IMG/VR virus record: IMGVR_UViG_3300028790_000011 | Coordinates: 1-36,283 of that record | Length of the DNA stretch: 36,283 nucleotides | Source: a virus | Reading direction: 5' to 3' (one strand) | The notes under the pieces: generated by a model | Told to the model about the DNA's origin: nothing | Database searches by the model: none | What the model saw: the letters and a program-made list of their open reading frames with translations, nothing else | Shown: positions 1,964 to 36,025 of the stretch, piece by piece | Position numbering within the stretch: position 1 is the first letter of the stretch | Layout: every line of letters starts with the position of its first letter | Position numbers and translations under genes: made by a program

Positions 1964-2454
1964 CGGTCATCGGCTTCTCCGGAAGCGAGCGCCGGTTGAT
2001 CCCGGAACTCGAAGGCTCGGACCTCGCCGATCCGGACGAGCTCGGTCGCCGTTCGGCGTCGACTCGACTCGGCCTCGATCGCCGCGGCGTAGAACTGGCG
2101 AAACTGCCGGACCGCCTGATCCTGAGCGTTACGCCGGTCCCACCAGACGTTCCGGGCGGCCACGGCGACGAGCGGATGCGCGTCCCAGTCGCCGGCCAGG
2201 TAGAAGCCGATCGCCGCGTCGAGAGCCGGCGGCGTCGTCCCGGCGAGCACCTCGGCGATCACGTCTCCGGGCGTCGGCGGGAAGCCTCCTGGCTCCATGC
2301 AGAGCCGGATCGTCGCCTGTACGGCCGCGTCGCCGTCGACGCCGGACGCTTCGAGAACGGCGTGCCAGGCGCGGAGTTCCTCGGACTTCACGTCCCGGTG
2401 ATGCGAGGTCATCGCCAGCGTGTAGCACTCGGCGACTTTCGCTCGGTCGATCAC
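1960..2454 (-). CDS. Helicase-loader-like replication protein
   Basis: A 164-aa helical protein. Start GTG at 2454 overlaps the replisome-organiser stop (GTGA). The pattern (short helices carrying out a YTLAM...W.AVLE repeat, a central GGFPPTPGDVIAEV, then a long C-terminal helix) resembles phage helicase loader or inhibitor proteins encoded directly after a DnaD-like initiator. In that model it would bring the host DnaB helicase to the origin bound by the upstream protein. The phage encodes no helicase or polymerase, which fits. The assignment rests on context and the PPTPGDV pattern; no Walker motif is present, so it is not a DnaC/DnaI ATPase. Confidence 0.5.
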   Translation of the reverse strand: MIDRAKVAECYTLAMTSHHRDVKSEELRAWHAVLEASGVDGDAAVQATIRLCMEPGGFPPTPGDVIAEVLAGTTPPALDAAIGFYLAGDWDAHPLVAVAARNVWWDRRNAQDQAVRQFRQFYAAAIEAESSRRRTATELVRIGEVRAFEFRDQPALASGEADDR

Positions 2455-3314
2455 GGCCGGCCTCCTTCGTTCAGGAAGTCCTCGACGACGGCGCGCTTTC
2501 GCTCGAGACGCGCTTCGTCGCCGTTGCTCGACGGCGGCGCGTATTTCCAGTCGCCGTTACGAAGCCAGCGGTCGAGACGCGGGATCCACCGGGTCGGCGT
2601 CTTCTCGTCGTCCCAGTAGCGCAACCAAGCGGTTGCACTTTCGAGAAGCCGTTCCTCGGTCGTCTCGGAGACGGCGCCGTTCCACGCGGCCTCGGCGTCG
2701 GTCGGTCTCTGCCGCTTCACCGCCGGCCAGGAGTCCCAGACGGATCCGAAGGCCGAGGTCGAAAGCACGGGGGGTGAGGACTTCCGGCCGGCGCCGTGGC
2801 CATCGAAGCACGGATCGGCGTCGCGCGCACGCGTCCCCTGTTTTCTCCTCTCCCCTCCTTTCCTCTCCTCTCCTCTCCTCTCCCCTTCCAGCGGCGAACC
2901 GCGGAATTCCGCGGAATTTCGCGGCGAACTATTCCGTGTGGCCGGCGTCACGTCATCGCCGGTCACGGACAGTCCCGACGGCGCCGCCGGATACTTCGAC
3001 CGGCCGGCGTTATCGAGACGCTGATTCTTCGCCCATCCGACGAGCTCAGCGAAGGTTTCTCCGTCGGCCTCGTAGATCCGGACGAGGCCGACGGCGACGA
3101 GTTCGGCCAGCCAGGAGCCGACGCTCTCGGCGGTCAGCGTCTCGTCGTCATAGGGGAACAGCCGATGCCTGAGGTACAGGTCACTTCCCCTGAATATTCC
3201 TGCGTCGTCGGCGATAGTTATGCAGAGAATGAACGTGAGACGTGCGTCACGCGAGCACTTTCCTAGTCGTTCATCTTCGGCAATATCCGGCTGAATCGTG
3301 CGAATCCGTGGCAT
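2451..3314 (-). CDS. Phage replisome organiser / DnaD-like replication initiation protein
   Basis: A 287-aa protein starting MPRIRTIQPDIAEDE, then ARLTFILCITIADDAGIFRG and RHRLFPYDDE. This is the conserved N-terminal winged-helix domain of phage replication initiators (residues about 1-110). A Gly/Glu/Arg-rich linker (about 135-175) is encoded by a purine-rich microsatellite. The C-terminal part (about 185-270) contains WDSWPAVKRQRPTDAEAAWNGAV and RWIPRLDRWLRNGDW, as in DnaD/DnaB-C-type phage proteins. It would bind the phage origin and recruit the host replisome. ATG at 3314 has AAGGGA about 10 bases upstream. It is followed by a GTGA overlap with the helicase-loader-like gene. Confidence 0.75.
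   Translation of the reverse strand: MPRIRTIQPDIAEDERLGKCSRDARLTFILCITIADDAGIFRGSDLYLRHRLFPYDDETLTAESVGSWLAELVAVGLVRIYEADGETFAELVGWAKNQRLDNAGRSKYPAAPSGLSVTGDDVTPATRNSSPRNSAEFRGSPLEGERRGEERKGGERRKQGTRARDADPCFDGHGAGRKSSPPVLSTSAFGSVWDSWPAVKRQRPTDAEAAWNGAVSETTEERLLESATAWLRYWDDEKTPTRWIPRLDRWLRNGDWKYAPPSSNGDEARLERKRAVVEDFLNEGGRP
2861..2883. repeat. Pentanucleotide tandem repeat inside the replisome-organiser gene
   Basis: On the plus strand the unit TCCTC is repeated about 4.6 times, flanked by further CT-rich sequence (2841-2889). On the coding strand it is GGAGA repeats, which encode a Glu/Gly/Arg linker and also resemble ribosome-binding sites. The unit length is not a multiple of three, so gain or loss of a unit would shift the frame. 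Confidence 0.9.
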
Positions 3315-3606: not shown

Positions 3607-4121
3607 CGCTCGACCGTCTTCGAGAGGCCGCGGATCCTCGAGACCGGGACCGCCGGTAGCGGATGGCCGAGAAGCGCCAGGCCGGCCGCTCGGAGCCAGA
3701 TGGCGTCGGCCTCGTCGTCCGATACGGTTTCGTAGCCCAGTCGTTCCCGCGCCGCGATCACCATCGCCGTCTTCGTCGCTCGGCCGTCGTCCGTCGCGAA
3801 TTTCTTCAGCGTCTTCGGCGCGAGCTCGACGACGACGATCGACTGTTGCCAGAGCTCCCACCGCAGGATCCCGCCGAGCTCGGCCTGCCCGATCGCCCCG
3901 AAGGTCGAGCCGTAGGAGTAGCCCTCGATCGCCACGAGATCGAGACCGCCGGCTCGCTCGATCTCGCTACGGACCTCGGAGACGATCCGGGCGATACGAC
4001 CCATCCGGACGCCGACCTTCGATCCCTTCGAGAGCGACGAGAGCCGGACGAGGCGGACCGAGCCGTCCGGTCGAGCGAGGCCGGTCGAGGTCGACGACGG
4101 GTCTATGCCGAGGACCTTCAC
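3603..4121 (-). CDS. RuvC-like Holliday junction resolvase
   Basis: A 172-aa RNase-H-fold nuclease. The acidic residues expected for RuvC are visible: D7 in LGIDPSSTSTG, E66 in LVAIEGYSYG, and the DDEADA cluster (D135, D136, D139). It should cut branched DNA, resolving recombination intermediates or concatemer branches before packaging. GTG at 4121 overlaps the previous stop (GTGA). It sits between the Gp3-like protein and replication initiator, the usual place for phage resolvases. Length matches bacterial RuvC (about 170). Confidence 0.88.
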   Translation of the reverse strand: MKVLGIDPSSTSTGLARPDGSVRLVRLSSLSKGSKVGVRMGRIARIVSEVRSEIERAGGLDLVAIEGYSYGSTFGAIGQAELGGILRWELWQQSIVVVELAPKTLKKFATDDGRATKTAMVIAARERLGYETVSDDEADAIWLRAAGLALLGHPLPAVPVSRIRGLSKTVER

Positions 4122-5635
4122 CAGTCGACCTCGGCGAAGACGATCCGGTTACCGTCCACGGCGTCGAATAGCGCCTCGCCGTTCCAGACCCAGCGGCCGG
4201 ACTGGACGAGCTCGAGCGCCTTGATTAGCGGGTCGGCGACGCCGTAGGGGATATCCGTCCTCGACGAGATGTCGGCCGACGCGCCCGCCCAGCGGGCGAT
4301 ACCGAGCTCGGCTTCCTTCCGGTAGGCGTCGACCTCCGTCGAGGTCGAGCCGTCCCACGCCGGGAAGGCCTCGGCCATCAGCGCGAAGCACTTCTTGTGC
4401 TGATTCGCCGTCATCCCGCGCCGGAAGCCGGTCGGCGCCTTCTTCGCCGGCGTCTCGGATTCCGGTTCCGGTTCGCTCGTCGTAGTAACGCCTGCGCCGG
4501 CCGGAGCGGGTTCAGCGAGCCCCACGGCCTCGCTAGACGAGCCGCTCCGACCGGCGTCCTGCCGCCGACCGCCGGCAGGATCAGGCGCCGTCGTCTCGAC
4601 GACGGTCTCGACCGCCGGCCGGCAGTCCCGGTGAACGTATCGCGACCCGCCGACCTCCGGATTCCGGACGAGCGGTCCGTCTCCGTAGGCCTTCCCGCAG
4701 GCCGAGCAGACCTTCTCGTCGGCGACCTGCGCGGCCGTCCTCGGCGCGAGGCCGGTGGCCGGTAGCTTCGGCGCGGTGTTCTTGCGCGGCTTCGGATCCT
4801 TCTCGACGCCGGCTAGCTGATCGGCGAACGACGGTGCGGCCGGCGCCGGCGGTAGCGCCTCCTGATCGACCGGACGCCATCCGGTAGGTTCGCCGACCGA
4901 GATCTCCGCAGGGCCGCCTATGGCCCTCAGGGCTTCTCTGGCGGGAAGCGACGCCGGCGGTAGGGAACCGAGCGCGGCGATCGACGTATCGAGGTCGAGG
5001 ACCGGGACGGCGAATTTCCGGACGACGGCCTTATCGTCGATGATCCGCCGGCGTTCCCGGAGCTCGATCAGCAGCCGCGCCGGGACCCGGTAGAGGCCCG
5101 CGGCGAAGGCCGACTCGATCAACTCGACGGAGCCGGCGAGCTCGGCCGCCGCATTGTGGCCCTTCGTCACGAGCGACCAGATCCCGAGGCCGACGACGTG
5201 GGGAAGGATCATGCCGAGATGCGTCGTCTTCGAGCAGAGCGGCTCGCCGTCGAGATCGCAGACGCACGGCTCCGGTTTCATCCGGCCTTTCGCCTGCGGG
5301 GTATAGCTCGTCTCGCCGTCACACATCCGGACGAGATGCCCGCCCTGCCACTGCTCTCGGCTCTGGGAGAAGGCGACGCCGCCGGTTATGAAGACGACGC
5401 TGATTTCAGAGGCTTCCGTGAAGACCTGCCACTCGCGCCGATCGCCCTCGGCCCACGGTTCGATCGTCCCGCCGTAGACGGAAGCGACCTGCTCGATCGC
5501 CGATCGGTCCGGAGACGTGAACCGGAACCGCTCGAGCTTGTGCGGGATCTTCTTTCCGCGTTCGTTCAGCGTCGAGTAGCCGATGCGGATCTTCCCGCGC
5601 TCTCGAAGCCGGCGCTGTTCGTCGACGAGTCTCAC
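4118..5635 (-). CDS. Gp3/RDF-like protein fused to zinc ribbon and C-terminal helical domain
   Basis: A 505-aa protein. Residues about 15-215 (IRIGYSTLNERGKKIP, RFRFTSPDR, YGGTIEPW, then a CDG and Cys cluster C105/C124/C126/C134) match actinophage proteins annotated as recombination directionality factors of the phiC31 Gp3-like family. That family switches a serine integrase from integration to excision. A Pro-rich linker follows, then a Cys/His zinc site (C310, C313, H335, C338), a disordered Glu/Pro/Ser linker (345-400), and a C-terminal helical domain (405-480, MTANQHKKCFALMAEAFP to VADPLIKALE) of the kind seen at the end of phage recombination proteins. GTG at 5635 overlaps the ParB-like stop, and GGGAGG lies 5 bases upstream. 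The RDF function is inferred by similarity; a role in DNA metabolism is the alternative. Confidence 0.6.
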   Translation of the reverse strand: MRLVDEQRRLRERGKIRIGYSTLNERGKKIPHKLERFRFTSPDRSAIEQVASVYGGTIEPWAEGDRREWQVFTEASEISVVFITGGVAFSQSREQWQGGHLVRMCDGETSYTPQAKGRMKPEPCVCDLDGEPLCSKTTHLGMILPHVVGLGIWSLVTKGHNAAAELAGSVELIESAFAAGLYRVPARLLIELRERRRIIDDKAVVRKFAVPVLDLDTSIAALGSLPPASLPAREALRAIGGPAEISVGEPTGWRPVDQEALPPAPAAPSFADQLAGVEKDPKPRKNTAPKLPATGLAPRTAAQVADEKVCSACGKAYGDGPLVRNPEVGGSRYVHRDCRPAVETVVETTAPDPAGGRRQDAGRSGSSSEAVGLAEPAPAGAGVTTTSEPEPESETPAKKAPTGFRRGMTANQHKKCFALMAEAFPAWDGSTSTEVDAYRKEAELGIARWAGASADISSRTDIPYGVADPLIKALELVQSGRWVWNGEALFDAVDGNRIVFAEVDW

Positions 5636-6462
5636 CGGACCTCCCACGTCCGGCCGTCGGCGGTGATCGGTACCGGGAACGGTTCGGGCTTCGCGCCGCC
5701 TCGGCGATAGTTGAGGACCCGGACCGGCGTCCCGGAGATCCACGCGTTCCACGCCTTGATCGTGAAGGCGAGCTCGTCGGTCGGCGTGATCCGGTACCGG
5801 CTGGCCGCCCTGTTCTGAAGCTGACGCCGGAGATGCAGGATCGAGCAGTCGTCGGAGAGGTTCGAGCCGGAGATCAGCAGCGAGACGAAGGCCGGTCCCT
5901 CGTCCTCGTCGATCCGGCCGAACTCGTAGGAGATCGCCGTACCGATGCTCGCCTTCATGCCGACGGATCGGCTTAGCGCCGCGCCGGGCTTCGTCGCCGG
6001 CCGGAGGCCGTCGTGACCGTCGAGCCACGCGGTCAGCGCCGAGAAGGTCGGATTATCGCCACCGGAGACCGGCACGCCGCGGGCCCAGCGGAGATGCAGC
6101 GCCGTACCGGCGGCGAGCGCCGTCGCGTGAGCTTCGCCGCGATGCGCCAGGAGATCGGCGAAGGTTCGCCGGCGTCCCGTATCCGTGTTCTCGATCACGG
6201 CGAGGGGAACGTTCCGCCGGACGAGGAACTCGACGGTCACGCCGGACTCGACGACGGCGAGAAGCCGATGCTGACCGTCGCCGAGCTTCCCGTCTTCGCC
6301 GAAGTCGATCGTTCCCGTCCCGATCACCCACTCGCCGCGCTCCATGTCGGCGGCGAGCCGGTGGACGTGATTCGCGTTCACCTTTCGCCAGTTGTCCGTA
6401 TTCAGGTTCAGGTAATCCTTCGCTAGAGCCGGCGAGATCCTTTCGATACGGCCTCTGATCAC
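5632..6462 (-). CDS. ParB/sulfiredoxin-fold protein
   Basis: A 276-aa protein whose N-terminal domain contains NANHVHRLAADMERGEW and the signature GDGQHRLLAV (residues 61-70). This is the nucleotide-binding loop of ParB-like (ParB/Srx) domains found in many phage early proteins. Residues about 90-240 are helical and unassigned. ParB-like folds bind NTPs and DNA or act as nucleases; which applies here cannot be read from the sequence. GTG at 6462 follows a strong AGGAGG. It is 10 bases after the nuclease gene and overlaps the Gp3-like start. It is not closely similar to the two ParB-methyltransferase N-termini in the head region. Confidence 0.7.
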   Translation of the reverse strand: MIRGRIERISPALAKDYLNLNTDNWRKVNANHVHRLAADMERGEWVIGTGTIDFGEDGKLGDGQHRLLAVVESGVTVEFLVRRNVPLAVIENTDTGRRRTFADLLAHRGEAHATALAAGTALHLRWARGVPVSGGDNPTFSALTAWLDGHDGLRPATKPGAALSRSVGMKASIGTAISYEFGRIDEDEGPAFVSLLISGSNLSDDCSILHLRRQLQNRAASRYRITPTDELAFTIKAWNAWISGTPVRVLNYRRGGAKPEPFPVPITADGRTWEVR

Positions 6463-6472
6463 GGTGGTCCTC

Positions 6473-7462
6473 CTAGTCGGTCGGCAGGCCGGCGAAGGGA
6501 TCGCCGGTCTCGGGTAGCGGGTACGGAGCGGCCATCTCGTCGCCGATGACGTTGCCGGCCTCGTTGAACAACCAGCGGGCGCACTCGAGCGTGTAGAGGA
6601 AGGCGGCGTGCTCGCGCTCGCCGCAGCGCGCCGGGTAGACGCCGAAGCGGTCCGGCGAGACGTGGATCACTACGCCGCCGTCGACCTCCGGGACCGGGAC
6701 GGCCGCGGCGCGCTCGTCCTCGTTCAGTAGGTAGTAGCGCCTCGACCGGTTGCCATTTCCGGAAGCCGAGTACCGGCGAGCGCGCCAGATGGCGGCCGCC
6801 TCGGCGTAGCGGTAGGCGGCTAGCTGCAGGCCGGCCTCCGGGTACGGCGCCTTCTCCTTGCCCGCCGCGGTGTACGAGGTCCGGCTCGTCTTGTAGTCGG
6901 CGATCAGGCGAACGCCGTCGATCGAGAGCCAGGCGTCGGCCTGGCCGCCGTAGCCGTAGGTCGAGTGGTAGACGACGGTCTCGCAGCCGAGGTAGTCCGG
7001 CTGAAACGTCTGAAGGAACCGGTCGAATTGATCGAGCATCCGGGAGACCGCTCGAACGTCCTCGTCCGTCAGGAGCTTTCCCTTCGAGGCGAAGTCCGGA
7101 TGCAGGTCGGCCGTCACCGCCGGCCGGCGACCGTCGAGCGCGTAGGTGTCGAATAGCTTGTGCGCCAGGGTCCCGAGCGCCGCGTCCGAGAGGTTCCCGC
7201 CGTTATCCCAGCGGAGATCCCGGACGTACTTCACGGCCGACTCCGGACCTTCTTCCTCGAGCCGGCGCTGCAGGAGCCGGAACCGCTCGACGACCCGATC
7301 GGCGGTGACGTTCACGGCCCACGGTACGAGCGCCGGCTTCTCAAGAACGCCGAGGCAGGTCGTGACCGAGTAGAGGACGAGATCGTCCGGTTGCCGGCTC
7401 GTGTCCCGGACCTCGCCGCGCCGCGGCAGCTTCGACGGCGGCGCGACCTGCAGGCCGGTCAC
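6473..7462 (-). CDS. PD-(D/E)XK exonuclease, RecB/Cas4-like
   Basis: A 329-aa nuclease. Motifs of the RecB/Cas4 clade appear in order: GTLAHKLFD (H101), E161, GGQADAW (D176), IADYKTS (D189, K191) and the QxxxY-type motif QLAAY (Q213). It would degrade or resect DNA ends during phage recombination, possibly with a single-strand annealing partner. The Cys residues for a Cas4 iron-sulphur cluster are absent in the pattern needed, so a plain RecB-family exonuclease is more likely. GTG at 7462 overlaps the HTH gene stop (GTGA). No CRISPR genes are nearby, so a Cas4 adaptation role is unlikely. Confidence 0.82.
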   Translation of the reverse strand: MTGLQVAPPSKLPRRGEVRDTSRQPDDLVLYSVTTCLGVLEKPALVPWAVNVTADRVVERFRLLQRRLEEEGPESAVKYVRDLRWDNGGNLSDAALGTLAHKLFDTYALDGRRPAVTADLHPDFASKGKLLTDEDVRAVSRMLDQFDRFLQTFQPDYLGCETVVYHSTYGYGGQADAWLSIDGVRLIADYKTSRTSYTAAGKEKAPYPEAGLQLAAYRYAEAAAIWRARRYSASGNGNRSRRYYLLNEDERAAAVPVPEVDGGVVIHVSPDRFGVYPARCGEREHAAFLYTLECARWLFNEAGNVIGDEMAAPYPLPETGDPFAGLPTD

Positions 7463-7764
7463 GAGGCTTCGAGAGCGCTACCGAGGACCTCGGCCCACGG
7501 CGCGCCGGTCTCGTCTCCGTCGATCGTTCCCCAGCCGGCGTAAAGCTGAAGAAGCTGAATGGCCCACGAGAACAGGAGCCGCTGATCGCCGGTCTCCCAT
7601 CGCTTGACGGTCGACTCGTGGACGCCGAGCGACCGGGCTACCTGCCGCTGGCTGAGGTCGGCGGCGACCCGCGCGGCCGATATGAAGGCGCCTACGGCCG
7701 CGTCAGAAGGCCTGACAGGGTGCGACCGAACGGGCGCGGGTTTAGTCGTTATAGGGCGCGGCAC
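7459..7764 (-). CDS. HTH (XRE-type) regulator at head of early operon
   Basis: A 101-aa protein with a helix-turn-helix at residues about 27-58 (AADLSQRQVARSLGVHESTV, then KRWETG), an XRE-family signature. GTG at 7764 is chosen because AGGAGG lies 6-7 bases upstream; longer readings toward 7911 are Arg-rich and unnatural. Upstream (7894-7944) lies a promoter with repeated sequence motifs that this protein may bind. It is the only clear transcription regulator in the window, so it is a candidate repressor, Cro-like protein or activator of the early operon. It is transcribed with the early genes, which argues more for Cro-like or autoregulatory function than for a lysogeny repressor. Confidence 0.75.
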   Translation of the reverse strand: MPRPITTKPAPVRSHPVRPSDAAVGAFISAARVAADLSQRQVARSLGVHESTVKRWETGDQRLLFSWAIQLLQLYAGWGTIDGDETGAPWAEVLGSALEAS

Positions 7765-7893
7765 GAGAGGCCTCCTATGGCGCTTGAGGGCGCCGGCTCT
7801 ACGCGCGGACAGCGCGAAGCCGGCGAGCCGACGGCTACGGAGGTCGGCCGGATCTCCCCCTCGGAGTGGTCCTGACCTCACGTTCCTCGTCGC

Positions 7894-7944
7894 ACGGTAC
7901 GCACTATGCACCTAAAGCGCAACCTATGCACAGTGCGCACTATG
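7894..7944 (-). promoter_or_regulatory. Early promoter with operator-like repeats
   Basis: On the minus strand TTGCGC (7922-7917), a 17-base spacer and TACCGT (7899-7894) fit an actinobacterial sigma-70-type promoter reading into the HTH gene. Overlapping it, CTATGCAC occurs at 7904 and 7924, exactly 20 bp apart. GCACTATG occurs at 7901 and 7937, and GTGCGCAC (7933-7940) is a perfect 8-bp palindrome. Such helically phased repeats are expected for repressor binding. Confidence 0.5.
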
Positions 7945-8300: not shown

Positions 8301-9708
8301 CGACGCGCCAGCGCTCGACCTCGGAGATCCCGCCGTCGTCCTCGGCGAGCTCCCAGCGCTTCGCGATGTCGTCGTGCCGCTTCGACGCCGGTAGCGACCG
8401 GCGGCGTTCCGGCTCCTTCGCCCGCGCCCGCTCGAGATCGGCCAGGAGCGGCGTCCGCGCCTTCTCCCACTCGGCCTTCGTGATCGTCCGCTTCCCGCGT
8501 TCCTCGGCGAGCTCGGCGATCAGGGCTTCGATCTCGGAGACTTCGTTCCCGTCCTCGGCCGGCGTCGGTACGGCGTCGGCGTCCCACGGCAGGAGACCGA
8601 CGTAGAGGCCGACGAGATCCTGCAGGAGCGTCTCGGTCCGGCCGGCGTCGATCGTGACCTTCTGTGCGGCGTCCTTCGGCGAGCGGTACCCGCGCCGGCC
8701 GTAGGCGCCCGGTCCGGTCTGGCCGGCCGTCGGAAGCCGGCAACCTCGGAGCCAGAGGCCGGCGGGATCGACGAGCGTCCCGCGGAGCGGGTAGGTCCCG
8801 CGCTTCCGGGAGTGCTTCCGTTCCGGCTTCGCGAGCTCGGCGCGGAGAAGCTCCCACGTCGCTCGGTCGAAGATCGGCTCCCAGAGGCCGACGAAGTAGG
8901 CCTCGTCGTCGTCCGGGTCGGCGTACGGGTCGGCGATCAGGCCGGCGACCGTCGGCGAGAGAAGCGACTTCCGCAGGTCCGAGGGATCCCACGGCTTCCC
9001 GGACCGGCGGAACCGTCCGGCTCCGTTCAGGAAGCCGGCGGCGTCCTTCTGCGTCGCCGGCGTCACCGGGTCGAGGATCGCCTCGGCGGCGAGCCGGAGC
9101 GTCTCGGCCTCGTGCTCGATCACTTCGAGCGTCGCGCCGGCGTGGCGACCGAGGAAGATCCGCCGGTAGCCGAAGCCGGCGCGCTCCGGCGCGTGACCGA
9201 GCGAGCGAGCCTGCGCCCGCTGAAGCCGGATCCGTTCCGACTTCCGATCGGACTCGTGCTGAGCTCGAGCGGCGTCCATCCGGGCGTAGTAGCGGCCGTC
9301 GGCCGTCGTGAGGTCGTAGTAGGAGCCCTGCACGGCGAGAAGCTCCACGCCGTCGTCCGGGTTCTCGCCGAGCGCCCGGATGATGTCGGTCAGATCCTCG
9401 GTCCGGCGGTAGAGCCGGTCGGTAGCCCAGACGGCGACGAGATCGAACCGGCGCGCCGCGGCGTCTACGAGAAGGTCCTCGTACTCCGGTCGCTTCGCGC
9501 CAGACCACGCGGAGATGTTGTTGTCCGAGTAGACGCGGACGACTTCGTAGCGACCGGGACCGAATTCCCGATCGAGGCGGTCCCGGACGGCTTCCTCCTG
9601 CCGGTCGACGCCGAGCTCGCGGCCGTACTCGTCCTTCGAGATCCGGACGTAGATCGCTACGAGGACGACGGCCGAGACGACCCGCCGGCTCGCTATCCGG
9701 CGACTCAT
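8176..9708 (-). CDS. int: Large serine recombinase (phage integrase)
   Basis: A 510-aa serine integrase. The resolvase catalytic domain (about 15-160) contains VAIYVRIS with nucleophile S24, and DLVAVWATDRLYRRTEDL. The recombinase domain (about 170-300) and a coiled-coil-rich region (about 385-460) follow. It would recombine attP with a host attB, making this a temperate phage. The region where the zinc ribbon is expected (about 305-365) keeps the fold-like pattern but has only one Cys, so the usual zinc-binding Cys set is missing. ATG at 9708 overlaps the stop of a 44-aa gene (ATGA) and has no ribosome site of its own, so translation is probably coupled. The nested dyad at 9894-9949 is its likely attP. 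Confidence 0.92.
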   Translation of the reverse strand: MSRRIASRRVVSAVVLVAIYVRISKDEYGRELGVDRQEEAVRDRLDREFGPGRYEVVRVYSDNNISAWSGAKRPEYEDLLVDAAARRFDLVAVWATDRLYRRTEDLTDIIRALGENPDDGVELLAVQGSYYDLTTADGRYYARMDAARAQHESDRKSERIRLQRAQARSLGHAPERAGFGYRRIFLGRHAGATLEVIEHEAETLRLAAEAILDPVTPATQKDAAGFLNGAGRFRRSGKPWDPSDLRKSLLSPTVAGLIADPYADPDDDEAYFVGLWEPIFDRATWELLRAELAKPERKHSRKRGTYPLRGTLVDPAGLWLRGCRLPTAGQTGPGAYGRRGYRSPKDAAQKVTIDAGRTETLLQDLVGLYVGLLPWDADAVPTPAEDGNEVSEIEALIAELAEERGKRTITKAEWEKARTPLLADLERARAKEPERRRSLPASKRHDDIAKRWELAEDDGGISEVERWRVVRWALGEVTVLPSHGGRWAASEKAIRKRLVVGAGPLAEVLP

Positions 9709-9839
9709 AGCGCCACGTCGTTAGCGCGGAGCCAGACGACGGCCGCGAGGAACTGATCGAGCGCGACGCGGGCCCGCTCGAACTCGTCGAGCCGATAGAG
9801 CCACGGCCTCGCCGGTGGCCGTAAGGCGTTCGGGATCAT
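9705..9839 (-). CDS. 44-aa protein coupled to integrase
   Basis: ATG at 9839 is preceded by GAGAGGA at 7 bases. A longer reading from 9890 lacks any ribosome site and overlaps the dyad. The protein starts MIPNALRPPARPWLYRLDEF and ends in a helix (ARVALDQFLAAVVWLRAN). Its stop overlaps the integrase start, so it may only serve as a translational leader, or it could bind the integrase. No family recognised. Confidence 0.65.
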   Translation of the reverse strand: MIPNALRPPARPWLYRLDEFERARVALDQFLAAVVWLRANDVAL

Positions 9840-9888: not shown

Positions 9889-9894
9889 ATTCTA
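9889..9894 (-). promoter_or_regulatory. Candidate -10 box for integrase operon
   Basis: TAGAAT on the minus strand matches the TANNNT consensus and overlaps the outer arm of the dyad. The -35 region (GACTTA at 17-base spacing) is weak. If real, any protein bound at the dyad would block it, giving autoregulation of the integrase. Confidence 0.3.
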
Positions 9895-9949
9895 ACTAGG
9901 TAATCAGTAGGTAAGTCCCCAAGGAGACTTACCTAGTCGGGACCTAGTT
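9894..9949. promoter_or_regulatory. attP: 56-bp nested perfect dyad, candidate attP
   Basis: Outer arms AACTAGGT (9894-9901) and ACCTAGTT (9942-9949), and inner arms TAGGTAAGTC (9908-9917) and GACTTACCTA (9926-9935), are perfect inverted repeats sharing the same centre (9921/9922). Spacers are 6, 8 and 6 bases. The centre reads CCC-AA-GGA, leaving a non-palindromic AA dinucleotide. Serine-integrase attP sites are about 50 bp, have two motifs per half-site, and carry an asymmetric central dinucleotide, so size, architecture and position just upstream of the integrase operon all fit. An operator or a hairpin terminator are alternatives. Confidence 0.6.
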
Positions 9950-10003
9950 CGGACGTACACTGTAGGACCCTAGATTTAGGCCCTCTCCTGCGCCTAACGG
10001 CCG

Positions 10004-10032
10004 AGAAGACGCCTTCGGCAGAAGACGCCTTC
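10004..10032. repeat. 13-bp direct repeat between accessory operon and dyad
   Basis: AGAAGACGCCTTC occurs at 10004-10016 and 10020-10032, a 16-bp period. Each copy is itself an imperfect palindrome (GAAG...CTTC), so the pair can fold or bind a dimeric protein. It lies in the 263-base non-coding stretch 9840-10102, which otherwise holds only the nested dyad and several scattered CCTAG motifs. Confidence 0.6.
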
Positions 10033-10102
10033 CCGGTGGATAGCCCCGCTCGGCGCGCTTCCGGCGGGACCGGTGCGTCCACTCGGCGAGGCGAGCCGGA
10101 TC

Positions 10103-28672: not shown

Positions 28673-29467
28673 CTACCCCACTATTTCGGACTCGACGGCG
28701 GTCGCCTGCTCGTCGACGCGCTTCGCCGAAGCGACCCGGTGAGGACCGGCGAAGTCGTTACCGGCTCGACCGAGGACCGGACCGATCTCGCCGTGCTCGT
28801 GAACGGCGACCTCCGTCCCCTCGGCCTCGGCCTTCGCCGCCGTCGCTCGGTTCGCCGCGTTCGTCATCGGACCGGGATCGGCGCCTCGCTCGACCGGAAC
28901 GGCCACGCAGTGACAGTGCGCGTGGATCGCCATGAGCTCCGAGGCCTTCGCCGGCCGGCCGGCGGCGAGAACGCATAGGTCGCAGCCGCCGGCGCGCGTC
29001 TTTCGCCGGAAGGTCGGCGTCGGGACGACGAGGCGAAACGCGTGCGTATGCGCTAGCTGAAGGTTCGTAGCGGCGAGATCCTTCGCCCGGTCGAGACCCA
29101 TCCGCATCGCGGCGACGAAGGCCGCTCCCTTCGATAGCTGCCACCAGACCTCGCGCGGCGGTCTCGTCCAGAGCTCGGCCGCCGGAACGCCGCGAAGCTT
29201 CTCCGACGAGAAGTCCTCGGCGGCGAGGCCGGCCGCCGGTTCGCCGGTAGCGATCGAGACGTAGGAGTCGGTAGCGCCGGCGACGAGACCCTGAGCGCGC
29301 TCGACGACCGGCGCGACCTGCGCCGCCCAGTCCCACGCGATCGCCTCGGTCATTCCCGGTAGCGCCTCCCACGTAACCGCTAGGTAGGCCTGCGTCGACC
29401 TCGAGAGCGACCGGAGATAGGTCTGAAACGCGACGGCGGCCGCTTCTACGTCGCTACGAGCCGGCAT
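28673..29467 (-). CDS. MuF-like minor head protein
   Basis: A 264-aa protein. The N-terminal half is helical. A C162-x2-C165 pair and a HAHCHCVAVPV segment (H182-C187) form the zinc-like signature of MuF-type minor capsid proteins in actinophages (CDLC ... H-x-HCxC). MuF proteins help DNA ejection and head assembly. GAGGCGG precedes ATG at 29467, which overlaps the upstream methyltransferase by 14 bases. Normally this gene follows the portal directly; here a ParB-methyltransferase is between them. Confidence 0.75.
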   Translation of the reverse strand: MPARSDVEAAAVAFQTYLRSLSRSTQAYLAVTWEALPGMTEAIAWDWAAQVAPVVERAQGLVAGATDSYVSIATGEPAAGLAAEDFSSEKLRGVPAAELWTRPPREVWWQLSKGAAFVAAMRMGLDRAKDLAATNLQLAHTHAFRLVVPTPTFRRKTRAGGCDLCVLAAGRPAKASELMAIHAHCHCVAVPVERGADPGPMTNAANRATAAKAEAEGTEVAVHEHGEIGPVLGRAGNDFAGPHRVASAKRVDEQATAVESEIVG

Positions 29468-30845
29468 CGGTCGCCGCCTCGAAGTCGTAGGTCTCGCCGG
29501 TCCCGTCGAGGATCGGCTTTATGCCGGTGACCTGCTGAAACCGGCGACAGGCTACGTCGACGTAGCCGGCGCTTAGCTCGATCCCGTGTCCGATCCGGCC
29601 GGTCTCGTGTGCGGCCAGGATCGTCGACCCGGACCCTACGAAGGGATCGAGGACGTGATCGCCGGCGTCGGTATAGGCCTTCACGAAGAAGCGCGGGAGA
29701 GCTACCGGGAAGGCGGCGGTGTGGCCGGTCTGGCGATCCTTCGCCAGCTTCGAGAGAAGCGTCGACGGGAACGCGAGACCGGGACCGGCGTCCTGCAGCT
29801 TCGTCCGGCGAGTTAGCTCGGGATCGCCCTGCTGATCGCGGACGCTGATCCGGGCGTCGAGGCCGCCGTAGGTAAAGGCCGCGTCGCTCGGATGCATGAC
29901 GGCCTCCGGCCGAAACTTATGAGCCCTCGACTGGACGAAGCCGTAGATCATCTCGAAGCCCTGCTTGAACCGGCCGCTCTGGCGCGGGTCGAGCGGCATC
30001 TGTCCGGCCGGCCACGCGTAGTCGTCGTGATAGAGCCAGCCCCAGTCGAGATGCGCTACGACGAGATCGAGGACGTAGCGCCGGCGAAGACGATCCTCGG
30101 CGCCCGGTGTGATGTTCAGAAACCACGATCCGTCAGTCGCTAGGTGCGCGGCGATGTTGGCGGCGACCGGCTCGAACCATTTCACGTAGTCGTCCGGCCG
30201 GATCGGCTTGAACCCGCTCGACGGGTCGTAGTCGCGCTGCTGCGCGTACGGCGGCGAAGTCATCGCCAGGTTCGCCGGGTCGCCGTCGAGCACGCGGGCT
30301 ACGTCGTCGACGTTCCGGCAGTCCCCACAGAGAAGGCGATGCGGACCGAGTAGCCAGAGGTCGCCGGGCTTCGTGATCTTCGGAGCGGTCGTCGGTACGT
30401 CGTCGAGATCCACGGCGACCGGCGGCGCCGGCGGCGACAGTCGCTCGAGAAGGTCCTCGAGATCGGATGCGTCGAAGCTGGCCGCGGCGAGAAGCGACTC
30501 GTCGGCCTCCTGCACTTCGGTCAGGAGGTCTAGTAGCGCCTGCTCGTCGTAGCCGCCGAGCTCCGAGGTCCGGTTATCGGCGAGCGCGAAGGCCTTCGCC
30601 GTCGCTTCGTCGGCGTCGGTCCGAACGACGGCGAGATGCGTCCAGCCGAGTTGCCGCGCGGCCATGAAGGTGTGATTCCCGGCGACGATCGTTCCGTCGA
30701 GACGAGCGACGATCGGCTTCAGTTGCCCGAAGCGCGCCAGGCTCCGAGCTACCGCGTCGACGTTCCCGCGCCGCGGATTCCCTTCGAGAAGGCGAAGCTC
30801 GTCGAGGCTCGTCGCTAGCGGCAGGAGGTTCTCGGCGATGGTCAT
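29454..30845 (-). CDS. ParB-like domain + beta-class DNA methyltransferase (copy 2)
   Basis: A 463-aa two-domain protein. Residues 10-130 form a ParB-like domain (LLEGNPRRGNVDAVARSL, TIVAGNHTFMAARQLGW, ALADNRTSELG). The methyltransferase has motif IV TSPPY (196-200) before motif I DPFVGSGST (400-408), the beta-class order used by N4-cytosine and N6-adenine enzymes. The region between (about 250-370), which recognises target DNA, differs strongly from copy 1, so the two likely modify different sites. The gene lies between portal and MuF, an unusual place. ATG at 30845 is 9 bases after the portal stop with no clear ribosome site. Role inferred: protection of phage DNA against restriction. Confidence 0.88.
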   Translation of the reverse strand: MTIAENLLPLATSLDELRLLEGNPRRGNVDAVARSLARFGQLKPIVARLDGTIVAGNHTFMAARQLGWTHLAVVRTDADEATAKAFALADNRTSELGGYDEQALLDLLTEVQEADESLLAAASFDASDLEDLLERLSPPAPPVAVDLDDVPTTAPKITKPGDLWLLGPHRLLCGDCRNVDDVARVLDGDPANLAMTSPPYAQQRDYDPSSGFKPIRPDDYVKWFEPVAANIAAHLATDGSWFLNITPGAEDRLRRRYVLDLVVAHLDWGWLYHDDYAWPAGQMPLDPRQSGRFKQGFEMIYGFVQSRAHKFRPEAVMHPSDAAFTYGGLDARISVRDQQGDPELTRRTKLQDAGPGLAFPSTLLSKLAKDRQTGHTAAFPVALPRFFVKAYTDAGDHVLDPFVGSGSTILAAHETGRIGHGIELSAGYVDVACRRFQQVTGIKPILDGTGETYDFEAATDAGS

Positions 30846-32291: not shown

Positions 32292-33946
32292 TAGCGGATC
32301 CTCCTGGCTATGTATTCCTCACGGAAAGCTCCGGCGGCCACGGCGGCTAGCCGCGCCTGCCAGCAGTAGACGGCCGCCACGGCGGCGTCGATCTTCTGAG
32401 CCGAGTCCTCGTGCGGCTTACCGATCGCCATCGAGGTCCGGGTCGGCCGGCGTCGAGCGTGCAGGACGTGCTGCGTCAGCTTGAAACTACCGTCGTGCGT
32501 CATCTGCCGATCGAGGACGGCCGATTGAAACTGCTGAAGCGCTCGACCCATACGCGAGCTCGTCGAGCCGGCCTGCACGGTCGTCCACGACATAGGCCGC
32601 TGCGCCGAGACCTTAACGCGGAGCCGGCGCGCGTAGCGTCGTTCCCAGTTGGCTACTACGCCGTCCCAGAGCGTCGGGTCGGCGAACAGGCCGACGACGT
32701 TCCACGTCGAGAAGGCCATATCGACGGCCGCCTCGACCTCGGCTTGCGGGACCGCCCAGTTGACGCCGGCCGGTCCGAGCGGCTGCTCCCATACGCCGAT
32801 CTCGAATAGATGGCCGTCGGAGACCCGGCAACCGATCAGCGCCGTGGCGTCGGTAACGCCTTTCGTCCGCTGGCGCGAGCCGTCGAAGCCGAGCACGACC
32901 GTATCGCCGACGTGAACGACCTTCGTCGGATCCGCGCACCCTGCCCATTCCGGCTCGGCGATCCACGCGTCGACGGCCGCCGAGATCTGATTCAGGAAGT
33001 AGCGCCGGCTATCCGAGGCCGGCGTCGACGGGTCCCATACCTCGTCCCGGATCCGCGTCAGGTCGACCCAGTAGGAATCGCCGTAGGCCGCCTCGAGACC
33101 GGACATCAGGTCGTCCTCGTCCGCCATGTTGATATCCGGCGGCGCCTCTCGGGAGTCGTAAAGGAGCATCGAGGTTCGAGACCGGCCTTCTTCGCCGGCG
33201 AGCCACGCCTTATAGGAGCGCTCCGCTACGGAGTCTTCGCCGGCCGCGTGGGCGTTCGTCGTTTCCAGAAGCCGGCCTCCCGTCTTCGAGAGGTTCCGTC
33301 GGTCGACCCGATCGAGCTCGGTTCCGCGGTTCGAGTCGTTGTAGTGCTGCGTCTCGTCCTGATAGATCGCCGTCGGCCGCGCGCCCTCGGCCGTCGGCGC
33401 GGACGCCGTGATCGGCTCGAGCCGGCCGCCGTGTCCGGTGTAGATCCGCGTTAGGCCGAGGTCGAGCCGGTAGGCCTCGACGATCGGCGACTCGGCGCAC
33501 ATAGCCAGGACCATGCTCATAGTGTTCTTCGTCTGATCGAGGCTCACGCCGGCGAGTTGAACCCACGCGGCGGCTACCGGCCGGCCGATCACTTCGCCGG
33601 CTTCGTAGGGCTCGGTCCGCCACGGTCTCGTCTCGCCGCCGAGCGCGAACCGGTCGAAGCGAACCGGACCGCAGAGCTCGGCGAGAGCCAGCGCGGAGAC
33701 GAGCGGCGTCTTACCCCAGCCTTTCGAGCGCCGGAGGACGCCGCGGACGTAACGCCAGCGGCCTTCCTCGGAGATCGCGTACCACTGAAGGATGAAGCGG
33801 ACTTGCTCGGGCGTAAACCGCCATTCCTCGCCGACGTTCGGACCGTCGGGCTGACGGATGAAGCGGGTCGTCCACCAGAGGACTTCCCAGCCGAGCGTGA
33901 AGGCCGGCGGATCTTCGGGAAGCGAAGTGACGGCCGGCCTAGCCAT
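32291..33946 (-). CDS. Terminase large subunit
   Basis: A 551-aa ATPase-nuclease. The ATPase domain has the phage-type Walker A RRSKGWGKT (72-80) and Walker B TAIYQDE (192-198). The RNase-H-like nuclease domain has VLGFDGS (D355), FADPTLWDG (D423) and a late Asp in DSAQKIDAAVAAV. It cuts and pumps DNA into the head. ATG at 33946 overlaps the upstream methyltransferase by 8 bases; no clear ribosome site, so translation is probably coupled. Confidence 0.93.
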   Translation of the reverse strand: MARPAVTSLPEDPPAFTLGWEVLWWTTRFIRQPDGPNVGEEWRFTPEQVRFILQWYAISEEGRWRYVRGVLRRSKGWGKTPLVSALALAELCGPVRFDRFALGGETRPWRTEPYEAGEVIGRPVAAAWVQLAGVSLDQTKNTMSMVLAMCAESPIVEAYRLDLGLTRIYTGHGGRLEPITASAPTAEGARPTAIYQDETQHYNDSNRGTELDRVDRRNLSKTGGRLLETTNAHAAGEDSVAERSYKAWLAGEEGRSRTSMLLYDSREAPPDINMADEDDLMSGLEAAYGDSYWVDLTRIRDEVWDPSTPASDSRRYFLNQISAAVDAWIAEPEWAGCADPTKVVHVGDTVVLGFDGSRQRTKGVTDATALIGCRVSDGHLFEIGVWEQPLGPAGVNWAVPQAEVEAAVDMAFSTWNVVGLFADPTLWDGVVANWERRYARRLRVKVSAQRPMSWTTVQAGSTSSRMGRALQQFQSAVLDRQMTHDGSFKLTQHVLHARRRPTRTSMAIGKPHEDSAQKIDAAVAAVYCWQARLAAVAAGAFREEYIARRIR

Positions 33947-35327
33947 CGGAGCCGCAGAAGTCGTGAGCCTCGCCGGTCCCCTCGGCGACTGGCTTAATCC
34001 CGGTGACCTGCTGCCAGCGCCGGCAGGCGATATCGACGTACCGAGGGCTCAATTCGATACCGAAGCTGATTCGGCCTTCTTGGTGGGCGCCGAGGATCGT
34101 CGAGCCGGATCCCGCGAACGGGTCGAGAACGTAGTCGCCGGGATCCGTGAACAGACGGACGAGGAACGCCGGCAGGCCGACCGGGAAGGCCGCGGCGTGA
34201 CCGGTCGCCTGATGGGATCCCTGAAACGTCGGAAGCCGGTTGCCGGGATAGGCCCAGCCTTCTTGCACCATGCCGGGAAAGGCGTCGTACTTCTGGCCCT
34301 GCAGGTCGGCGAGATCGGTAAGCCGGTCCTTCGTCCCGCCGACGCCTTTCGCGATGATCGCTTCCTCGCTGAAGTGCCGGACGTTATCCGGTCGGAATTT
34401 CCACCGGGACTTCGCGAACTGGTAGATCGGCTCGAACTGATTCTTCAGCCGTTGAAACGGTCCCTTCGGGAAGCCGACGCGCTCCCAGCAGAACTCGGTC
34501 GCGAAATGCCAGCCCCAGCGCCGGACGTGAGCCGCTACGAGGTCGACGACGTAGAGGTCCGTATCGAGACCGTCGGCCGGCGGCTTGATGTTGATCAGCC
34601 AGGAACCGTCTTCGGCGAGATGCGCGCCGACGTTCGCGGCGACCGGCTCGAACCAGTCGACGTAATCCGGCGCGGGGATCGGGACGAAGCCGGAGCTCTC
34701 GTCGTAGTCGCGCTGCTCGGCGTACGGCGGTGAGGTCACGGCGAGGTTGACCGTCGCGCCGTCGAGGACGCGCGCCACGTCGGCCGGCGACCGGCAGTCG
34801 CCGCACAGAAGCCGGTGAGGGCCCAGAAGCCAGAGATCGCCCGGAGACGTGAGCTCCGGCGCCGAGTCCGGTACGTCGTCGACCTCGGCCGGTAGCGCCT
34901 CGCCGGCGGCGCCGGAGACGGCCGGCGAGTTCAGAAGGTCCTCGAGATCCTGAGCCGAGTAGGAGATCGCTTCGAGTAGCGCCTCGTCGGCTTCGGCGAC
35001 GCTCTGGATCAACTCGGCGAGAGCGATCGGGTCGTAGCTACCGAGCTCGGCCGTTCGGTTATCGGCGAGCGCCAGCGCGGCCGCTCTCGTCTCGTCGTCG
35101 GAGACCCGGACGACGGCCAGGCTCGGCCAGCCGAGTTGCCGAGCGGCTAGGAGCGTGTGATTCCCGGCGACGACGACGCCGGAGACGGTCGCGACGATCG
35201 GCTTCACCTGGCCGAACGCTTCGAGGCTCCGGGCGATGGCGTCCACGTCGCCGCGGCGCGGGTTGCCGGGAAATAGCGAGAGCTCGTCGAGCGGGACGGC
35301 GAGCCCTTCGAGTTCCTCGGCGATCAC
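33939..35327 (-). CDS. ParB-like domain + beta-class DNA methyltransferase (copy 1)
   Basis: A 462-aa paralogue of the 29454-30845 protein. ParB-like domain: LSLFPGNPRRGDVDAIARSL, VVVAGNHTLLAARQLGW, ALADNRTAELG. Methyltransferase: TSPPY (198-202), DPFAGSGST (402-410), and the shared ending VDIACRRWQQVTGIKP. Residues about 250-370 differ from copy 2, implying a different target. GTG at 35327 overlaps the small-terminase stop (GTGA), with GGAAG 8 bases upstream; an upstream extension to 35603 runs antisense-like and is rejected. It sits between small and large terminase, where such an enzyme is unusual. Confidence 0.88.
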   Translation of the reverse strand: MIAEELEGLAVPLDELSLFPGNPRRGDVDAIARSLEAFGQVKPIVATVSGVVVAGNHTLLAARQLGWPSLAVVRVSDDETRAAALALADNRTAELGSYDPIALAELIQSVAEADEALLEAISYSAQDLEDLLNSPAVSGAAGEALPAEVDDVPDSAPELTSPGDLWLLGPHRLLCGDCRSPADVARVLDGATVNLAVTSPPYAEQRDYDESSGFVPIPAPDYVDWFEPVAANVGAHLAEDGSWLINIKPPADGLDTDLYVVDLVAAHVRRWGWHFATEFCWERVGFPKGPFQRLKNQFEPIYQFAKSRWKFRPDNVRHFSEEAIIAKGVGGTKDRLTDLADLQGQKYDAFPGMVQEGWAYPGNRLPTFQGSHQATGHAAAFPVGLPAFLVRLFTDPGDYVLDPFAGSGSTILGAHQEGRISFGIELSPRYVDIACRRWQQVTGIKPVAEGTGEAHDFCGSDG

Positions 35328-36025
35328 GGCGCCATCTTCCGGTAGGTCTCCATCGCCGTGACCGAGGCGGTATCGGCTTCTCGGAGCTCGGCGCCGGAGT
35401 CGGGATCCCGGTAGCGGATCCGTAGGTCTCGACGAGCGTCCGCCGTCGTCCCCATCAGTTTCTCCCGAGTCCGGATCTCCGAAGCGAGGCGAAGGTCGCC
35501 GGCATGGAACGCGGCGACGAGAACGGCGGTATCGGCGGCGAACTGCCACTCCGGCTCGTCCCATAGAACGCAGTGCGGCATAGCGACGAGCGCTTTCCAC
35601 CACCGCTTCGTCGGCGCCGGCCAGACCATCGGCCGGTGATTCGCGCCGTCGAGCCGGAGAAGCCGGAGCGAAACGGTGATCTGATGGTCGAGCTTCCGGA
35701 GCGCTTCGCGTTCGTGCCAGTCGCCTTCTCGAAGGACGCGGATCCGAAGGCTTACCCGCTCGTCGAGTTGTTCGCAGAGAAGGAGAAGCGAGTCGGCGTC
35801 CGGCGTGACCTGGCTATCCCGCCAGGCTCGATCCCAGAGGGCTTGACCGGGCGCGCCGAGCGGTCTCGACGGCGGCGGCGGATCGACCGGCGGCTTCCGG
35901 TTCGGCGTTCTCGGTAGCGGCGGACCGTCGAGGAACGGCGTATTCGGTACGTCCGTCCAGTCGGCTCGCGGATTACGGCCTCGGATCTGATCCGGAGGCT
36001 TCGGTTTCCGGCCGGAGAGCGGCAT
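35324..36025 (-). CDS. Terminase small subunit, apparently chimeric
   Basis: A 233-aa protein. It begins MPLSGRKPKPPDQI and NPRADWTDVPNTPF, and later has TKRWWKALVAMPHCVLWDEP and EKLMGTTADARRDLRIRYRD, the standard blocks of actinophage small terminases. Between them (about 50-125) a helical segment (PGQALWDRAWRDSQVTPDAD, LLLLCEQLDERVSLRIRVLR) resembles the P27-type small terminase DNA-binding domain. ATG at 36025 is chosen because GAAGGA lies 8 bases upstream; a GTG at 36049 would put that ribosome site inside the gene. It recognises phage DNA for packaging. Confidence 0.82.
   Translation of the reverse strand: MPLSGRKPKPPDQIRGRNPRADWTDVPNTPFLDGPPLPRTPNRKPPVDPPPPSRPLGAPGQALWDRAWRDSQVTPDADSLLLLCEQLDERVSLRIRVLREGDWHEREALRKLDHQITVSLRLLRLDGANHRPMVWPAPTKRWWKALVAMPHCVLWDEPEWQFAADTAVLVAAFHAGDLRLASEIRTREKLMGTTADARRDLRIRYRDPDSGAELREADTASVTAMETYRKMAP

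Follow-up and report, generated by a model that had tools for sequence, protein, structure and literature searches.

A nested dyad upstream of a serine integrase gene in an uncultured virus contig as its probable attP site

The DNA analysed here is a virus contig of 36,283 bp from IMG/VR, recorded without a host genome and referred to over its whole length as the window. Most of its genes are on the minus strand, and the gene set resembles that of tailed phages of actinobacteria, with genes for terminase, portal, tape measure, endolysin, integrase, an HTH protein, exonuclease, a Gp3-like protein and a replication initiator. The closest phage relatives of the terminase infect Arthrobacter and Curtobacterium. 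Two DNA methylase genes (29454-30845 and 33939-35603, both on the minus strand) flank the terminase-portal pair, and the N-terminal part of both methylases matches phage ParB-type partition-protein families.

On the minus strand, the order of the features around the integrase gene (int) is an upstream gene, an RNA hairpin, a 56-bp nested dyad, a 44-aa ORF and int (Table 1). The hairpin is built from two tandem copies of GAAGGCGTCTTCT and sets the int operon apart from the genes upstream. The dyad centre lies 214 bp before the start of int; 54 bp separate the dyad from the 44-aa ORF, and the integrase is the second ORF downstream of the dyad. The small ORF is possibly translationally coupled to int. 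Moreover, the window encodes a Gp3-like protein that matches gp3 of phiC31 and phiBT1, while a query of IMG/VR for relatives of this protein returned none.

Table 1. Features of the dyad, the int operon and related genes in the window
Feature	Position	Strand	Basis or remark
Replication initiation protein, predicted	2451..3314		
Gp3-like protein (phiC31 type), candidate recombination directionality factor (RDF)	4118..6028	-	PF18897, E 3.5e-30
HTH protein, XRE-type	7459..7911		PF13560
Large serine integrase, 510 aa	8176..9708	-	catalytic motif YVRISKD, Ser24
44-aa ORF, no family match	9705..9839	-	stop overlaps int start by ATGA
TAGAAT, -10-like hexamer, putative promoter	9889..9894	-	sequence
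Nested dyad, probable attP, 56 bp	9894..9949		sequence, simulation, comparison with known attPs and relatives
Left half-site, P-type	9894..9920		would stay linked to int after AA crossover; from sequence and the serine-integrase mechanism
Outer arm AACTAGGT, 8 bp	9894..9901	+	half-positions 20-27; putative zinc-domain motif
Inner arm TAGGTAAGTC, 10 bp	9908..9917	+	half-positions 4-13; putative recombinase-domain motif
AA, predicted crossover dinucleotide (minus strand TT), non-palindromic	9921..9922	+	dyad centre; position predicted, matching the AA of the R4 attP dyad
Right half-site, P-type	9923..9949		would go to the other prophage end; predicted from sequence
Inner arm GACTTACCTA, 10 bp	9926..9935	+	perfect pairing with TAGGTAAGTC
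Outer arm ACCTAGTT, 8 bp	9942..9949	+	perfect pairing with AACTAGGT
Strong RNA hairpin, 16 bp, terminator-like without T run	10001..10036	-	-31.6 kcal/mol (56-nt stretch), z -4.8

The full sequence of the dyad is AACTAGGTAATCAGTAGGTAAGTCCCC-AA-GGAGACTTACCTAGTCGGGACCTAGTT. A sequence-only reading of this DNA had given its coordinates and sequence exactly, with perfect 8-bp and 10-bp arms around a common AA centre. The same reading described two independent inverted repeats; they are indeed perfect and co-centred, but they are not independent, as the core (C/G)TAGGT is present in all four arms and TAGGTAA in three of the four. The cores stand in tandem, 11 bp apart, inside each half and are inverted between the halves. 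With 21 of 28 positions paired, the dyad ranks first among all even-centred dyads in the window, the runner-up having 19. As chance model we used an order-1 Markov chain that keeps the dinucleotide frequencies. Among 5,000 simulations of the 394-bp intergenic region, none reached 21/28 and none contained perfect 10-bp and 8-bp arms sharing one centre; among 150 simulations of the whole window, 2.7% had 21/28 somewhere, while the nested arms were found in none. The dyad is well beyond chance.

The site adjoins the phage's own integrase gene. From its architecture, its position and the comparisons described below, we read positions 9894-9949 as the attP of the adjacent serine integrase, with a probability of about 85%. 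By the mechanism of serine integrases we infer how the site would be used: two integrase subunits would sit on the two 27-bp half-sites, each with its catalytic linker and recombinase domain on the inner arm and its C-terminal DNA-binding (zinc-type) domain on the outer arm. Cleavage would take place around the central AA, followed by synapsis with an attB carrying the same dinucleotide and by rotation, giving attL and attR, and the orientation would be set by AA, being non-palindromic. int would then keep beside it the -10-like element and the left half-site, and the terminator-like hairpin and the upstream genes would end up at the opposite end of the prophage. An RDF would be required for excision, and the Gp3-like protein is the candidate for this role.

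The sequence-only reading also had a candidate -10 element of the int operon overlapping the site, so that integration would rearrange integrase transcription. The overlap is real but consists of one base, and the promoter itself is weakly indicated: no -35 element is recognisable for TAGAAT, and the promoter scan found no promoter. The claim about transcription is weak, as an AA crossover would leave TAGAAT, and with it a -35 element spaced as usual, joined to int and would not by itself separate int from the promoter. Integration would alter the upstream neighbour and need not remove the core promoter. The integrase, when bound to its own attP, could also repress int transcription.

It speaks against the attP reading that one core recurs in all four arms, as a single DNA-binding protein with a repeated site would also give. 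The dyad could in that case be an operator, its four (C/G)TAGGT cores being bound on one helix face by a regulator of the int operon, for example the HTH protein; the 11-bp spacing of the cores in each half, the adjoining TAGAAT and the nearby gene for the XRE-type protein would fit. Phage repressors, however, usually have several operators, whereas the 10-bp inner-arm motif was found at this single site in the window with up to one mismatch allowed, the region upstream of the HTH gene included. Moreover, two co-centred pairs of arms over 56 bp would be unusual for an XRE operator, and unrelated phages have the same architecture upstream of their serine integrase genes. We therefore consider an operator improbable. 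Much less probable still is an RNA element, in which the dyad would act as a terminator or as the leader hairpin of the int transcript. The minus strand does fold to a nested hairpin (-28.8 kcal/mol, z -3.3), but long dyads fold anyway, and the symmetric internal loop is needed by a DNA site and not by an RNA. The dyad has neither a T run nor a match in Rfam, a better terminator-like hairpin lies upstream (Table 1), and the -10-like element, if real, puts the transcript start beyond the dyad. Least credible is a set of origin repeats for the phage replication initiator: the GC content of the dyad region, 49% per 100 bp against 68%, is the lowest in the window, an initiation protein is predicted and the cores stand 11 bp apart in tandem, but the initiator gene is 6.6 kb away, there are only two copies per orientation, and the repeats are centred as in an attP and lie beside int.

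We further focused on the integrase that would act on the attP. It has the resolvase domain PF00239 and the recombinase domain PF07508, and also matches phrog_95. In an alignment of 40 integrases Y20, R22, S24 and R98 are invariant, so that the nucleophilic serine and the conserved arginine are present. The structure model built from the 40 sequences reached a pLDDT of 83, against 37 for the single-sequence prediction, and its best structure matches are full-length solved serine integrases (Z 17-19, rmsd 13.8-14.4 Å over about 450 residues); such an rmsd is expected of domains placed differently. Both the recombinase domain and a coiled-coil C-terminal domain are present, and the spacing between the recombinase and zinc domains in the protein is an ordinary 38 residues.

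The use of zinc in recognising the outer motif is treated as a defining part of serine integrases. In the zinc region of the present integrase (residues ~298-372) one of the usual zinc-ligand cysteines is left, while all 39 aligned relatives have at least three; the four ligands of a zinc ribbon (or three and a His) are thus not found here. A frameshift hiding the cysteines was considered and rejected, as the other frames contain no cysteine cluster. As the fold is still predicted, the model points to a zinc-less variant of the domain and not to a different protein family. Tentatively, this integrase may lack zinc coordination in its outer DNA-binding domain, pair with an attP in which one core is copied in both the inner and the outer motifs, and read DNA zinc-free, perhaps in a changed way; we hold this combined reading to be possible, though rather unlikely. 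The activity of phiC31 integrase requires zinc (Rutherford 2013, PMC3783163). The RDF of phiC31, gp3, binds its integrase in this same C-terminal region (PMC5814800), so the loss of cysteines is worth noting beside the Gp3-like protein.

Related integrases were found at 55 loci in IMG/VR, and the 36 with enough upstream sequence were scored for dyads. A dyad scoring 18/25 or more lies upstream of int in seven of these 36 uncultured-virus loci, compared with 4 of 260 control stretches. In 12 sites (at least 16/25 and within 160 bp of int) the symmetry is concentrated at half-positions 2-9 and 18-26, zones that overlap the present arms (4-13 and 20-27), although this profile is descriptive only, the sites having been chosen by the score itself. 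One site stands out, that of IMGVR_UViG_3300019142_000011 (loci L143 and L178): as in the two half-sites here, half-positions 4-7 read GACT and half-positions 20-25 read ACCTAG in each of its halves. It shares the nested symmetry, with a dyad of 20/25 lying 64 bp from the matched int region, but it has a CA centre, its integrase retains the zinc-ligand cysteines, and the 12-kb stretch examined is not syntenic. The likeness has a shuffle p of 0.0026, or about 0.03 after 12 comparisons, and with integrases only 34% identical it is suggestive only. When the full shared signature pattern was searched in IMG/VR, only this contig matched.

Among 11 loci in bacterial genomes with related integrases, no dyad exceeded 17/25. 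In the 10 with adequate upstream sequence the best dyad is more than 130 bp from int, and the remaining one, L097, has only 68 bp upstream. We assume that these loci are mostly integrated elements, in which attP would be split. In L097, L103 and L109 the sequence just upstream of int looks, by eye, like the end of a Mg-chelatase-like gene, and this gene end is a possible attB for the group.

Single-protein searches of IMG/VR and 84,980 genomes found no close relatives of the integrase; an alignment of seven integrase sequences was too diverse as a search query. In IMG/VR, a half-site pattern with 14 fixed bases hit 73 stretches, which were judged to be chance matches and none of which contains the dyad. 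A longer half-site pattern had no match in 396 genomes of the phylum, and DNA similarity of the region to phage records was limited to a weak 39-base match that does not cover the dyad. As these searches (IMG/VR, the 84,980 genomes and the half-site patterns) yielded no host, attB, attL/attR pair or close-relative lysogen, the attP reading is unproven.

The predicted attP, its cognate integrase and the candidate RDF would together form a self-contained recombination module. Any further orthogonal pair helps to test how serine integrases discriminate between attP and attB, and a zinc-less integrase, if active, would allow a direct test of the need for zinc in the recognition of the outer motif.

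For comparison with known sites, we scored all even-centred dyads up to 450 bp upstream of int, out of 25, in seven phages with serine integrases. In R4 and phiBT1 the top dyad is the attP annotated in the record; in the R4 record (D38173), the attP core (254-265) lies inside a 50-bp repeat (231-280) adjoining int. The top dyads of phiC31 and TG1 and the second-best dyad of Bxb1 we take to be the attP sites; in the stretch shown, no attP is annotated in the records of these three phages. The attPs of TP901-1 and A118 were not recovered by this upstream scoring, and Bxb1 has a stronger dyad than its presumed attP elsewhere upstream of int; the dyad test is therefore not specific alone. The known sites score 15-17/25 and the present one 19/25. 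The remark that known sites are usually only imperfectly symmetric thus comes down to a difference of degree, relatives reaching up to 20/25.

An attP of this kind is about 50 bp long, with a motif for the recombinase domain and an outer motif for the zinc domain (Rutherford 2013, PMC3783163). In the Listeria integrase the half-site is about 25 bp, and the zinc-domain motif lies at positions 16-24 from the crossover base (Rutherford 2013, PMC3783163); the outer arms here are about 3-4 bp further out. The symmetry of the relatives reaches position 26, so this offset from the published half-site is modest. In Bxb1 the outer flanks matter for binding (PMC3642061). With its 56 bp and its AA centre, the latter as in R4, the present site has the two-motif half-site design and size that the sequence-only reading ascribed to attP, and the core of that reading, a likely attP, is well supported by the annotated sites of R4 and phiBT1 and by the uncultured-virus relatives.

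Among the known systems, the nested dyad of R4 also has AA at its centre and lies directly upstream of a serine integrase gene with the same orientation. The two integrases are members of one family, with about 32% identity in the part that matches, and the inner and outer motifs are partly alike, one side in R4 being GTGGTAC-N5-GTGGGTAC. The two differ in their arm sequences, in score and distance from int (17/25 and 37 bp in R4, 19/25 and 214 bp here), and in the 44-aa ORF that separates the dyad from int in the present phage; the R4 integrase also keeps more of the zinc-ligand cysteines. In phiBT1, phiC31 and TG1 the dyad likewise lies just upstream of int, and a Gp3-type RDF is again encoded in this group of phages, but their integrases are more distant and their outer arms stop closer to the centre, by about 2-4 bp. 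Bxb1 has two symmetric zones, the outer flanks and the inner motif, around a non-palindromic dinucleotide, as here, but with a GT centre, shorter outer arms and an attP 26 bp from int. Set beside these systems, the present site is ordinary of its kind, though clean.
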